A stretch of DNA of 24,147 nt, taken from IMG/VR virus record IMGVR_UViG_3300018014_000013, positions 1 to 24,147 of that record; one strand, written 5' to 3'. The first letter of the stretch is position 1, and each line of letters opens with the position of its first letter. Position numbers and translations under genes: made by a program. Under the pieces are notes generated by a model. That model saw only the letters and a program-made list of their open reading frames with translations. It made no database searches and was not told where the DNA came from. This document shows positions 7,838 through 22,283 of this stretch, piece after piece. This DNA comes from a virus.

Positions 7838-8464
7838 TTAGGTAGGGCGGATCGCCTCCATCAGACGGGCACTGATCCATTCCGTGTAGGCGGGGGGGAT
7901 GGCTTGTCGTGCCTCGTCCACGGTCATCCAGTCGATCCCCATGGCGGGGCCGAACTCGCTCTCCGGGTAAGTGCCGCCATGGTCCCGTGGGTGCTCCCCG
8001 CGCTGGTGGCAGCATCGGGGGAGGAGCACGGCCCCGGTCAGCCACGGCATCTCAAAGTAGCGGTGGGACCGGACGGGGATGCCGAACATTGAACCGCAGA
8101 GCATCACGGGATGGATTAGTTCGCGGCGGGCGTCGGGCACGTTCTCGATCACCCACGGGCGCCCGGTGGCTGCGAGATGCTGCCGCACGGGGGCAATCAG
8201 CCGTGGATGCGCGTCCCGAGACCCCCGCCAGGCCGTCACGCCTGCGTACGCTTGGCAGGGTGGAGATGCGTGCATGGCAACGAAACGCTCGGAGTAGTCG
8301 TCCAACCACGGGAGTAGCTCCATGGCGTCGGCTCGATGGAACTCGAACGGGTAGTGGGGCTGAGGCTTGATGTCCACGCCCACCACCTCGAAGCCCGCGC
8401 GGTGGTAACCGACAGCGGCGCCACCCGCTCCACAAAACAGGTCCAGAAGGCGGGGCCGGGTCAT
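7838..8464 (-). CDS. DNA C5-cytosine methyltransferase, short phage type
   Basis: 208 residues from ATG 8464, overlapping the stop of the LAGLIDADG gene (ATGA). It transfers a methyl group from S-adenosylmethionine to C5 of cytosine in DNA, perhaps protecting phage DNA from restriction. Motif I is LLDLFCGAGGA (residues 6-16). Motif IV is ASPPCQAY, with catalytic Cys70. Motif VI is the ENV at 107-109, and motif VIII is the RSHRYFE segment. A motif X-like PPAYTEWISARLMEAI closes the protein. It is shorter than typical Dcm enzymes because the target-recognition region is small, but all catalytic motifs are present. No cognate restriction enzyme is nearby, so it is probably an orphan. Confidence 0.9.
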   Translation of the reverse strand: MTRPRLLDLFCGAGGAAVGYHRAGFEVVGVDIKPQPHYPFEFHRADAMELLPWLDDYSERFVAMHASPPCQAYAGVTAWRGSRDAHPRLIAPVRQHLAATGRPWVIENVPDARRELIHPVMLCGSMFGIPVRSHRYFEMPWLTGAVLLPRCCHQRGEHPRDHGGTYPESEFGPAMGIDWMTVDEARQAIPPAYTEWISARLMEAIRPT

Positions 8465-13157: not shown

Positions 13158-13579
13158 TTGCGAGCCACCACCCGCGCACGGCGAGCCAACTCGGCGGCGG
13201 ATGCGTTCTGGAACCAACCGGCGAACAGCGAGACGAACAACGCGCCCCCACCTAGCGCCAGCGTCACCCACGGCGTCAGCGACGGGTACGGGGAGACGTA
13301 CTGTAAGATCGCGCCACCAGCCGCCACCAGCGTCACGGCGATCCCGTTGACCCACGAGAGCACATCGTAGACACCGGCGGGAACAGGGATGCTCACGGAC
13401 GCCAGATAGGTGTGCCCGACGAACGCCACCAGGGCGATGAAGCCGAGGACGGAGCCCGCGATCACGTCGGCCTGGGAGTTACCAAAGCCCCGCACGAAAA
13501 CGAGGACGGCGGCCTGTGCTCCCACGAGGACCGACAGGAACACGTAGAGATTGATTGTCTTGGCTAGAGCTGCGCGCAT
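13154..13579 (-). CDS. Four-helix membrane protein, holin candidate
   Basis: 141 residues from ATG 13579, with GAGGGAATC before the start. There are four hydrophobic spans: INLYVFLSVLVGAQAAVLVF (near 10-29), VIAGSVLGFIALVAFVGHTY (near 38-58), VNGIAVTLVAAGGAILQYV (near 75-95) and WVTLALGGGALFVSLFAGWF (near 103-122). A basic tail (AELARRARVVARK) follows. Size and topology fit phage holins, and a peptidase lies three genes downstream. No lysin with a recognised peptidoglycan-binding domain is in the window, so the holin call remains tentative. Confidence 0.6.
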   Translation of the reverse strand: MRAALAKTINLYVFLSVLVGAQAAVLVFVRGFGNSQADVIAGSVLGFIALVAFVGHTYLASVSIPVPAGVYDVLSWVNGIAVTLVAAGGAILQYVSPYPSLTPWVTLALGGGALFVSLFAGWFQNASAAELARRARVVARK

Positions 13580-14118
13580 GATTCCCTCACTTCCCTTGGT
13601 TTCTCGGTACAAAACTCCAACGGGAGCGCGGTGTGCTTGGCCCGCACGCCCGGAACTGGCCCTTGGTGCGGGCATCCGCCATAGAGCCCCTTGGCCGTGT
13701 TGCAGTTATGGCAGAGCAGTTGAAAGCGGCCGTCCTTGGGATAGCCGTTCCTTGCCAGCCACAGATAGATCGCGCGACCGTAGCCCTTGAGTTCGCGGCG
13801 GTGCGCCTCGCCGTCATTGAACACGTGATCGATCGCCAGGAACTCCGGGGTCGTCTCTCCACAGCAAGCGCAGGCACCGCCGTACTCAGCCAGAACGCGC
13901 TCGCGACGCCTGCGCGCCCTTAGAATATTGCCCTCCCGGTGCTTACGGGAGTACGCCTGGCTTTGTAGGTTGTATTTGCGGGGGTTCTCGACGTAGCGCC
14001 GTTTGCGATCGGCCTTGACGCACTCTTTACACACGGAGTGATGGCCGTTGCCATGCGTGGCATCCGGGTAGAACTCGGCGTCGTCTTTGTCCGTCTGGCA
14101 CTTGCGGCAGAAGTACAC
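13564..14118 (-). CDS. Free-standing HNH endonuclease
   Basis: 184 residues from GTG 14118, overlapping the membrane-protein start by 16 bases. An N-terminal zinc pair (YFCRKCQTDKDDAEFYP, then HHSVCKECVKADRKRRY) is followed by a basic helix. The HNH core is ACACCGETTPEFLAIDHVFN, then FQLLCHNCNTAKGLYGGCPH. The Asp-His of IDH and the CHNCN segment supply the metal-binding and catalytic residues. Proteins with this double-zinc layout are common in tailed phages as homing or nicking enzymes. I see no duplicated neighbour segment around it, unlike the other two endonucleases here. Confidence 0.85.
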   Translation of the reverse strand: MYFCRKCQTDKDDAEFYPDATHGNGHHSVCKECVKADRKRRYVENPRKYNLQSQAYSRKHREGNILRARRRRERVLAEYGGACACCGETTPEFLAIDHVFNDGEAHRRELKGYGRAIYLWLARNGYPKDGRFQLLCHNCNTAKGLYGGCPHQGPVPGVRAKHTALPLEFCTEKPREVRESCAQL

Positions 14119-19733: not shown

Positions 19734-20550
19734 GCAGTACGTCAAGGTGGAAACGCGCATCCTCGGTCACCCAAAGTTCCTTGGGCTCTCCATGGCCGCT
19801 CGAGGTGTCTGGTTGACAGGGTTGCTCTATGCCAAGGGTCAATTGACCGGGGGCCGCGTTCAAGCGTTCGCCATGGACTTTGCCACGGGTTGCGGTCCCG
19901 CTGAGGACGAGTGGATTCAGGAACTACTCGAACACGGGCTCTGGGCGGTGGCTGGCGATGGCGACGGGTGGGTGATCCACGGATACTCAGACCACCAGAC
20001 AGACCCGGACTTCGCCGCGATGGGACGGCATTCCGCCGCCTCCCGCCGTGCACGCTATGGGACAGCCCAACCCCCAGCACCCGAACGCATCCCGAACGAT
20101 CCTTCGGTACCCGTTCCGAACGTAGTTCGACCGAACGTCCCGAAGGAAACAGAGACAGGAGACAGGAGACAGGAGACAGATATACACGTCTCCCTCTCTC
20201 CCGATGACGTGACGCGCATCTGGAACGAGAACCGGGGACCGTTGCCTGGGCTCCGCAAGACACCCGAGACGGGGGAACTCGCTCGTCTCTTGGAGCGGGC
20301 GCTGGTATGGTTCACCGGAGATGCCGAGGCGATGGCCCGTTCCGTCCGCCGTGTGGCGGGGGATGAGCACTATCAGGCCGAACGGTACGGGTTCCAAGCA
20401 TGGGCGAGGCACCTTGACCGCTGGGACGACCCCGGGGAGCAGCACATAAATGGCGGCAACTTTATGCCACTTGCCGATCCCCTCCCCGCCGAGATCGACC
20501 CCGAGGGGCAGGCGAGAATCCATGAGCTGTTGGCGGGGGCGGGGATGTGA
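19726..20550 (+). CDS. Replication initiator or replisome organizer
   Basis: 274 residues from ATG 19726. The N-terminus (YVKVETRILGHPKFLGLSMA, then GVWLTGLLYAKGQLTGG, then WVIHGYSDHQTDP) matches the winged-helix start of phage replisome organizers. Residues 100-155 are a disordered linker (RIPNDPSVPVPNVVRPN...) whose DNA carries tandem repeats, described separately. The C-terminal domain is helical (RLLERALVWFTGDAEAMARS, YGFQAWARHLDRWDD) and may load the helicase. The gene lies two genes upstream of the DnaB-like helicase. The initiator assignment follows from the N-terminal domain and this context. Confidence 0.75.
   Translation: MAEQYVKVETRILGHPKFLGLSMAARGVWLTGLLYAKGQLTGGRVQAFAMDFATGCGPAEDEWIQELLEHGLWAVAGDGDGWVIHGYSDHQTDPDFAAMGRHSAASRRARYGTAQPPAPERIPNDPSVPVPNVVRPNVPKETETGDRRQETDIHVSLSPDDVTRIWNENRGPLPGLRKTPETGELARLLERALVWFTGDAEAMARSVRRVAGDEHYQAERYGFQAWARHLDRWDDPGEQHINGGNFMPLADPLPAEIDPEGQARIHELLAGAGM
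20081..20200 (+). other. Candidate replication origin inside the initiator gene
   Basis: CCGAACG occurs at 20081, 20092, 20116 and 20131. Then GAGACAG repeats four times without interruption (20152-20179), followed by ATATACAC. GGAGAC (20172-20177) and GTCTCC (20188-20193) form a hairpin with a ten-base AT-rich loop. These sit in the linker of the initiator gene, like iterons in the lambda O gene. Function is inferred from layout. Confidence 0.45.
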
Positions 20551-22283
20551 GCGTGGTCATCCACCACGGGGACTGCCTCGTGGTGCTGCCGACGCTCGAC
20601 GCCGACTCCGTCGGCGCCGTGGTCACCGACCCTCCCTACGGCCTCGGGTTCATGGGCAAGGAGTGGGACGGCGGAGGCGTGGCCTTCGACCCCGCGACTT
20701 GGGAGGCTGTGGCCCGCGTCCTGAAGCCTGGCGGGCATCTGGTCGCCTTCGGGGGGACGCGCACCTTCCACCGGCTTGCCTGCGCGATCGAGGATGCAGG
20801 GTTCGAGATTCGCGATTGCCTCTCGTGGCTGTATGGGTCTGGCTTCCCGAAGTCGCTGGACGTGAGCAAGGCGATCGACAAGGCGGCGGGGGCGGAGCGG
20901 GAAGCAACGCGGGAAGCAACGCGGGAAGCAACGCGGTCCACCACGGCGATCTCATGGGACCAACGAGGGTCGGGGGAGCGCGCACGCTTCGATCTTCCCG
21001 CGACCGAGGAGGCCCGCCAGTGGGAGGGCTGGGGCACGGCGCTCAAACCGGCCTGGGAAAGTGTGATCTTGGCCCGGAAGCCGAGATCAGAGAGTGATAG
21101 AATAGGCTCATGCCTGTTGCGGTTGTATGCGAGCATTGCGGCGCTGAGTTCAGCGTCAAACCCAAGCGTCTCCGGGGCCGCCGGGTCCGCTGGTGCTCCC
21201 TCGGCTGTCGCCGGGCCGCCCAATACGTCGGCCGGTTCGTCCGCTCTGACGGATACGTCGCCGTCCGAGTCGGTGACGACTACGAGCTTGAGCATCGTGT
21301 CCTCATGGCTCAATACCTGGGCCGAGCACTGCTCCCTGATGAGCACGTCCACCACCGCAACCACGTCAAGTCCGACAACCGACTGGACAACCTTGTGGTC
21401 CTGTCTATCGCGGATCACGCCCGAGGCCATCATCGAGGCCGCGACGAGGGGACGTGGGGCGATGCCGCTTGTCGATGGTGCGGAGGCCCTATTCGGCGCC
21501 GTCTCATCGAACTCCGCCGTCACCCGGTCGCTTTCTGCTCTCGGGAGTGCTATCGACGAGGCGCCCATCTCACCGCTGGCCGAGGACGAGGCGCCTCTTA
21601 GTCCGCTCTGGGAGCCGATCATCCTGGCCCGCAAGCCGCTCTCGGAGCGGTCGGTGGCGGCAAATGTCCTCCGTCACGGGACGGGAGGGGTGAACGTCGA
21701 TGCGTGCCGGATTGAGGGGGACGTGCCGAAGCCCGGCAATATCAAGCCGACGAATCTTAGCGGAGCGAACGGCATCTACGGGATCGACAAGCGGGCCACT
21801 CGCCAGGCCGAATGGGAGCCCGCGAATGGCGGTCGCTGGCCCGCCAACGTCGTCCTCGACGAAGAGGCGGCCCGGTTGCTCGATGAGCAGGGCGGGGAGC
21901 GTCCGAGCGGCTCGAGAGTAGCGGGCGTCCGAACCGGGCTCGGTTACCACGGCGCGAACGGTGACGGCGGACCGGCCATTGAGGGATCGGCGGGAGGTGC
22001 CGCCCGCTTCTTCTACACCGCCAAGGCCGACTCCGCCGAACGCTCCGAGGGGTTGGGGAAGCGCAACGCCCACCCCACCGTTAAGCCACTCTCGCTGATG
22101 GCGTGGCTGGTCAAGCTGGTGACCCCTCCCGGCGGGACGGTGCTCGACCCCTTCCTGGGGAGCGGGACCACGGCCATCGCCTGCCTCGGCAACGGCTTCT
22201 CCTGTATCGGGATCGAGCGGGAGGCGGAGTACGTCGAGATCGCCGCGGACCGCATCGGACTCGGGTGCGAGGTGGTCGCGTGA
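20547..22283 (+). CDS. DNA N4-cytosine/N6-adenine methyltransferase interrupted by a homing element
   Basis: 578 codons, GTG 20547, GTGA overlap upstream. Motif IV is TDPPYG (Asp28-Tyr31); motif I is DPFLGSGTTA near residue 534. This order fits the beta class. The N-part (KPGGHLVAFGGTRTFHRLAC, then CLSWLYGSGFPKSLD) and C-part (RNAHPTVKPLSLMAWLVKLV) are typical. Codons 170-354 are an insertion: WESVILARKP before and WEPIILARKP after duplicate the host sequence, and the frame stays open. The inserted host-frame segment is Ser/Thr/Ala-rich, without domain character. Removing it leaves a normal 393-residue enzyme. Whether the long form is active is not known. An (REAT)3 repeat lies before the insertion. 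Confidence 0.85.
   Translation: MSVVIHHGDCLVVLPTLDADSVGAVVTDPPYGLGFMGKEWDGGGVAFDPATWEAVARVLKPGGHLVAFGGTRTFHRLACAIEDAGFEIRDCLSWLYGSGFPKSLDVSKAIDKAAGAEREATREATREATRSTTAISWDQRGSGERARFDLPATEEARQWEGWGTALKPAWESVILARKPRSESDRIGSCLLRLYASIAALSSASNPSVSGAAGSAGAPSAVAGPPNTSAGSSALTDTSPSESVTTTSLSIVSSWLNTWAEHCSLMSTSTTATTSSPTTDWTTLWSCLSRITPEAIIEAATRGRGAMPLVDGAEALFGAVSSNSAVTRSLSALGSAIDEAPISPLAEDEAPLSPLWEPIILARKPLSERSVAANVLRHGTGGVNVDACRIEGDVPKPGNIKPTNLSGANGIYGIDKRATRQAEWEPANGGRWPANVVLDEEAARLLDEQGGERPSGSRVAGVRTGLGYHGANGDGGPAIEGSAGGAARFFYTAKADSAERSEGLGKRNAHPTVKPLSLMAWLVKLVTPPGGTVLDPFLGSGTTAIACLGNGFSCIGIEREAEYVEIAADRIGLGCEVVA
20897..20932 (+). repeat. Three perfect 12-base tandem repeats in the methyltransferase gene
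   Basis: GCGGGAAGCAAC is repeated three times without change. It encodes REAT three times, in frame. Copy number could change without frameshift. It lies in a variable linker of the methyltransferase. Confidence 0.85.
21095..21103 (+). promoter_or_regulatory. Leaderless promoter of the HNH gene
   Basis: TGATAGAAT is an extended -10, with ATG 21110 starting seven bases after the hexamer. It would let the endonuclease be expressed independently of the methyltransferase. It has the same form as the sites at 11,230 and 18,670. Confidence 0.55.
21110..21601 (+). CDS. HNH homing endonuclease nested in the methyltransferase gene
   Basis: 163 residues from ATG 21110. The N-terminal zinc site is VVCEHCGAEFSVKPKRLRG, then VRWCSLGCRRAA. 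The HNH_3-type core is YELEHRVLMAQYLGRALLPD, then EHVHHRNHVKSDNRLDNLVV, then SIADHARGHHRGRDE: His, a second His and Asn in the expected order. The C-terminal zinc site is CRWCGGPIRRRL with FCSRECYRRG. This is a phage HNH homing endonuclease with zinc clusters at both ends. It is read in a different frame from the methyltransferase and has its own promoter. It probably cuts methyltransferase genes lacking the insertion. Confidence 0.88.
   Translation: MPVAVVCEHCGAEFSVKPKRLRGRRVRWCSLGCRRAAQYVGRFVRSDGYVAVRVGDDYELEHRVLMAQYLGRALLPDEHVHHRNHVKSDNRLDNLVVLSIADHARGHHRGRDEGTWGDAACRWCGGPIRRRLIELRRHPVAFCSRECYRRGAHLTAGRGRGAS

Follow-up and report, generated by a model that had tools for sequence, protein, structure and literature searches.

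The DNA methyltransferase gene examined here very probably carries a frame-transparent homing element of the ShiLan type, in which an HNH endonuclease is encoded in an alternative frame and the long methylase is read through the insert without splicing. A homing gene that breaks up a coding sequence is generally believed to require an intron or an intein if the host is to be spared. This family shows an alternative to both, a nuclease written in such a way that it leaves the host frame open. The reading builds on the anatomy and site of the insert, the conserved phase of the nuclease gene, selection against host-frame stops, protein-level constraint on the upstream flank copy and spread between divergent methylases.

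Anatomy of the interrupted methylase gene

The window, meaning the whole stretch of DNA analyzed, is 24,147 nt of an IMG/VR virus record. Its host gene encodes an N6/N4 DNA methyltransferase of 578 aa with a GTG start (positions 20547 to 22283, plus strand), and the ORF is open across the whole insert. The N6_N4_Mtase and phrog_67 profiles match the ORF on both sides of the insert, with a DPPY motif in the first half and DPFLGSGTT in the second, both of which are invariant in the family alignment. The mobile insert occupies 21054 to 21608 on the plus strand, a length of 555 nt or 185 codons. The initial annotation had described it as an in-frame insertion bounded by WESVILARKP at 21054 and WEPIILARKP at 21609, and had predicted a complete HNH endonuclease in another frame; both descriptions hold. 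The endonuclease ORF (21110 to 21601, plus strand) encodes 163 aa in a frame two bases ahead of that of the methylase (h-a mod 3 = 2) and matches Pfam HNH_3 (E 4.7e-10) as well as many PHROG HNH families. The HNH_3 domain spans roughly 21293 to 21424, and zinc-finger-like cysteine pairs (CxxC) are found on either side of the HNH core. A PDB sequence search with the HNH profile returned no relative of known structure.

A segment of the host gene is present on both flanks of the insert, as had been noticed from the sequence. Copy 1 of the target segment (WESVILARKP), upstream and diverged, lies at 21054 to 21083 and copy 2 (WEPIILARKP), the canonical one, at 21609 to 21638, both on the plus strand. 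The flank stretches WESVILARKPRSE and WEPIILARKPLSE are identical at 27 of 39 nt, and the pair is the best 10-codon self-match in the whole methylase ORF (8 of 10 aa, 22 of 30 nt). Because the duplication is the best self-match of the ORF and recurs in essentially all lineages of the family, it is not a product of chance. The same ORF contains two other repeats: GGAAGCAACGCG in imperfect tandem at 20895 to 20935, which encodes (REAT)n in the methylase, and an imperfect 30-nt repeat at the 3' end of the insert (21549 to 21608), read as DEAPISPLAE / DEAPLSPLWE.

Relatives and range of the family

A megablast of the window against isolate phages matched only about 1% of its length and recovered no near-identical isolate. 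When the HNH protein was searched against isolate phages by tblastn, the best matches lay inside genes annotated as single DNA methylases. The closest is in cyanophage Cr-LKS3 (62%), and mycobacteriophage matches fall at 48-51% (Starcevich, OwlsT2W, ShiLan, Filuzino, Pollywog, MISSy, Murica, Bipolar, Mantra and Totinger), with that to phage ShiLan at 51.2% over 158 aa (E 5e-37). In all 10 regions that were opened, the insert lies within one deposited methylase gene. These HNH relatives (47-62% identity) are inserted where the HNH of the window is, in the same methylase family and in identical phase. Wider searches added virus contigs and one contig from a betaproteobacterial MAG, where the HNH again has this phase relative to the methylase, giving 51 loci with an HNH gene at this site on contigs with a GC content of 0.27-0.67; they form 23 lineages, defined as groups below 70% HNH identity. 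In one locus (L047, 2597-4213), the HNH replaces the GSGFPKS-LKPA stretch and flank copy 1 is absent.

Uninterrupted relatives share one conserved segment, GTALKPAxEPIIxARKPLxGTVAxNV, so that alignment to them places a single GTALKPAxEPIIxARKPL where interrupted genes have two flanks. The insertion point is a conserved ALKPx|EPIxxARKP site, which is also seen in the window. The uninterrupted sequence is nearer to copy 2 than to copy 1. A close relative of the window's own lineage with an empty site was not found.

Selection for an open host frame

An open frame across a single insert is not in itself rare, and it is possible to view it as a by-product of HNH codon content, with a dead methylase and an ordinary free-standing homing gene. 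In the window copy alone, the probability of an open frame is about 0.11, which is not significant. This figure comes from a null model in which synonymous codons are shuffled within each HNH gene while its protein and codon usage are kept. Applied across the 23 lineages, the same model expects 39.7-39.9 stops in the methylase frame and none is observed; host-frame stops are absent in 50 of the 51 same-site loci. The null is calibrated, since the unused third frame of these lineages holds 287 stops against 282 expected and the corresponding frame of 35 free-standing HNH lineages holds 132 against 140, with 1 open frame against 1.1 expected. That open free-standing case (L056), considered as a possible further example, lies beside a capsid gene and is within this chance expectation. 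The combined probability of about 10^-28 (log10 P about -28) treats lineages as independent and so overstates the case, as they share ancestry, although synonymous sites should be close to saturated at such divergence.

The one copy with a broken methylase is in locus L049 (2998-3495), which has an HNH at the same site; the methylase ORF ends just before it, at GTSLKPAFEPVCVGYKRV*, and a separate methylase gene runs from 3801 onward. The host frame of this broken copy has 12 stops against 9.1 expected. Openness in the 23 lineages is thus far beyond chance over a wide GC range, while free-standing relatives and the broken copy sit at chance, and the methylase motifs are kept on both sides of the insert. 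Taken together, these comparisons show, by codon statistics, selection on host-frame openness across the relatives, and the by-product account is left highly unlikely.

The absence of stops where 40 are expected, with control frames at chance, also argues that translation of the methylase runs across the insert with no splicing. This bears on the idea of an undetected self-splicing intron, for instance a group I intron that has degenerated and contains an HNH ORF. Phage group I introns commonly carry HNH endonucleases, the flank similarity could be read as an intron signature, and similarity between the insert 5' end and the 3' flank has been considered as an intron sign (PMC11855218). A spliced insert, however, needs no open host frame. 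Rfam models gave no intron match in the window, around the insert at permissive E-values, or in seven relatives; in the window they detected only four tRNAs, all located elsewhere than the insert. The HNH ORF fills 492 of the 555 nt, which leaves too little for a catalytic core, and the flank copy is constrained as protein rather than RNA (see below). The earlier view that the insert is not an intron, which was offered as far as sequence could tell, is therefore borne out by the covariance-model search for group I and II introns across the insert, and an intron now seems wildly improbable.

An intein-like element removed after translation would explain the open host frame, and other phages have true inteins at a different site of this methylase family. 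The read-through protein has no match to an intein family, though, and the last in-frame residues vary among lineages and show no conservation of the N or C/S/T used in splicing. The insert is also predicted at low confidence by AlphaFold2, with no evident intein fold. As with the intron, we give this explanation almost no weight, in agreement with the initial annotation. Over the 185 residues the host frame is kept open, and evidence of conservation as protein is confined to the flank copy.

Constraint on the two flank copies

Copy 1 was compared in 24 lineages, in which its E, A/G and K are kept in 24 of 24 and its P in 22 of 24. Divergence at first, second and third codon positions is 0.37/0.34/0.69 in copy 1 and 0.67/0.69/0.71 in the next nine codons, which are saturated at all three positions. 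By this pattern the upstream copy is constrained as protein, not RNA, which indicates that methylase reading continues into the insert.

Structure prediction favors copy 2. With an alignment that included uninterrupted relatives, AlphaFold2 models copy 2 as a core strand of the methylase (residues 356-362). A bias was suspected, as uninterrupted relatives align to copy 2, and the prediction was rerun with interrupted members only; copy 2 was again the core strand (residues 358-362). Both models are of low confidence over copy 1 and the greater part of the insert. As both runs choose copy 2, prediction gives no support to a core strand formed by copy 1. A core made of copy 2 only, as modeled, gives no account of the constraint on copy 1 and counts against the read-through element favored here. 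One could speculate that copy 1 caps the first half of the methylase during folding on the ribosome.

Homing and the proposed mechanism

Measured from copy 1 to the KP of copy 2, the inserts of six relatives show nucleotide identities of about 90-96%, while identity drops to 30-80% in the adjoining methylase sequence. One of these six contigs has a GC content of 0.40 and the others are near 0.6. Likewise, HNH pairs at 92-97% identity have N-flanks that fall to as low as 47%. Inserts of about 90% identity in methylases that share only some 50-60% indicate, at the level of sequence comparison, homing in lineages other than that of the window. This pattern agrees with the disjunct distribution already published. 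The element had been suggested to carry its own copy of the target flank, which fits both the single copy in uninterrupted relatives and the movement of insert and copy as one unit.

In the mechanism that we favor, the HNH would be translated from its own start codon in the alternative frame and would presumably cut the empty ALKPAx|EPIIxARKP site of methylase alleles that lack the element, which would then be inserted by repair from an occupied copy. The cost to the host would be small, since the length of the insert is divisible by three and its methylase frame has no stop, and the methylase would be made as one longer, presumably active protein with a looped-out linker and neither RNA nor protein splicing. 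Since the element brings a diverged copy of the target strand, host sequence lies on both sides and the occupied allele is mismatched to the empty site; the diverged copy may thereby protect the occupied site.

Translation of the HNH endonuclease

Alignment of the families places the HNH start at the Met or Val that immediately precedes the first pair of cysteines. Of 27 sequences, 10 have a Shine-Dalgarno sequence of at least 5 bases at a distance of 4-10 nt upstream of the start, compared with 4.9% of random windows, and the carriers include mycobacteriophages with GGAGG 4 nt before a GTG. A ribosome-binding site thus likely precedes the HNH in many lineages, as judged from these motifs. A different start has been published, an upstream GTG inside the flank copy, for which no ribosome-binding site was detectable and leaderless initiation was suggested (PMC11855218).

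The HNH start in the window has no Shine-Dalgarno sequence, and its expression there is uncertain because this feature of many relatives is missing. A leaderless promoter-like site had been proposed, and a -10-like hexamer, TAGAAT, does lie at 21098 to 21103 on the plus strand, 6 nt before the ATG. It might suit a leaderless start; a sigma-70-type promoter scan for the window HNH found nothing, and the promoter part of the proposal stays weak.

Comparison with known systems

The closest known system is the ShiLan domain of mycobacteriophage methylases, named in 2023 (PMC9957025) and recognized as an out-of-frame HNH in 2025 (Arsenault, PMC11855218); within the literature searched, the name occurs in only two papers. 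The latter study already reported the open host frame, the lack of an intron or intein and a similarity of about 11 residues. The window shares with this domain the methylase family, insertion site, phase, open host frame and homologous HNH, again with no intron or intein, and the start of its insert likewise resembles the downstream flank over about 11 residues. It differs in being a distant lineage on an uncultivated virus contig, with an ATG start, a TAGAAT box and no Shine-Dalgarno sequence. By these sequence criteria the window insert is best classed as a new, distant member of the published kind. The published set consists of mycobacteriophages, to which the family described here adds Cr-LKS3, the betaproteobacterial MAG contig and AT-rich virus contigs; many relatives have GGAGG, whereas no ribosome-binding site was detectable in the published study. 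A published oddity of about 10 mycobacteriophages thereby becomes a statistically supported rule across many virus lineages. New here are evidence of selection for read-through, the protein constraint on the flank copy, the likely ribosome-binding site in many lineages and the wider range. The initial reading, of a frame-keeping HNH homing element that has its own target-flank copy and is neither intein nor intron, is supported by all of the tests.

Other systems are more distant. The Pacc40 gp60 insert (PMC11855218) is also an out-of-frame nuclease ORF nested in a phage methylase, but the methylase, site and nuclease are different. Free-standing phage HNH homing genes (HNH_3) have the same domain family and presumably the same cutting chemistry, yet they lie between genes and keep no alternative frame open. 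Mobile ORFs of fungal mitochondria that come with a duplicated gene terminus (Allomyces atp6; Glomus atp6, atp9, cox2 and nad3; PMC3630166) are alike in that a homing gene carries a synonymously diverged copy of the target flank and the host gene stays complete. They are mostly LAGLIDADG genes (GIY-YIG in atp9), replace the C terminus and have a nuclease that is not overprinted.

Parallel cases

Three other loci (L125, 2423-2989; L165, 2462-2989; L123, 2283-2918) have other HNH types out of frame with the host frame open, inserted at two further positions in this methylase family. Two methylase inteins (L002, 1833-2570; L049, 1401-2402) contain an HNH ORF in another frame, with the intein frame open. 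The third frames of these five cases have 6-18 stops. In-frame LAGLIDADG domains with no intein motifs seen occur in the N-terminal part of the methylase in L006, L017 and L018 (Mantra, Totinger), and a lone LAGLIDADG insert in this methylase family has been described (PMC9957025).

The window itself holds a LAGLIDADG-like ORF (8850-7838, minus strand) fused to the N-terminus of a C5-methylase (VSKPRLLDLFCGAGGAAM, 8850-8797). A complete C5 methylase (7838-8464, N-terminus MTRPRLLDLFCGAGGAAV) comes next and overlaps it by ATGA. Over 18 codons, the two C5-methylase starts are identical at 14 first, 16 second and 6 third positions, a pattern that points to synonymous divergence. On this comparison the ORF is a putative second homing-type gene with a diverged flank copy in the window, and the fungal mobile ORFs are the nearest precedent for that copy. 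The surroundings of 80 LAGLIDADG relatives gave no C5-methylase match on the forward strand.

Whether frame-transparent homing nucleases are a general third strategy beside introns and inteins, with several origins, is in our estimate evenly balanced. Several origins are suggested by this methylase family, in which different HNH types lie out of frame within an intein as well as at three insertion sites, and by the LAGLIDADG-like element that, in a different methylase of the same window, has a flank copy with synonymous divergence. If such a strategy is real, selection keeps the host gene readable, and a diverged copy of the cut segment would be a natural form of 'home-and-rescue'. The window also contains a free-standing HNH / endonuclease VII-like ORF of 184 aa at 13564-14118 on the minus strand.
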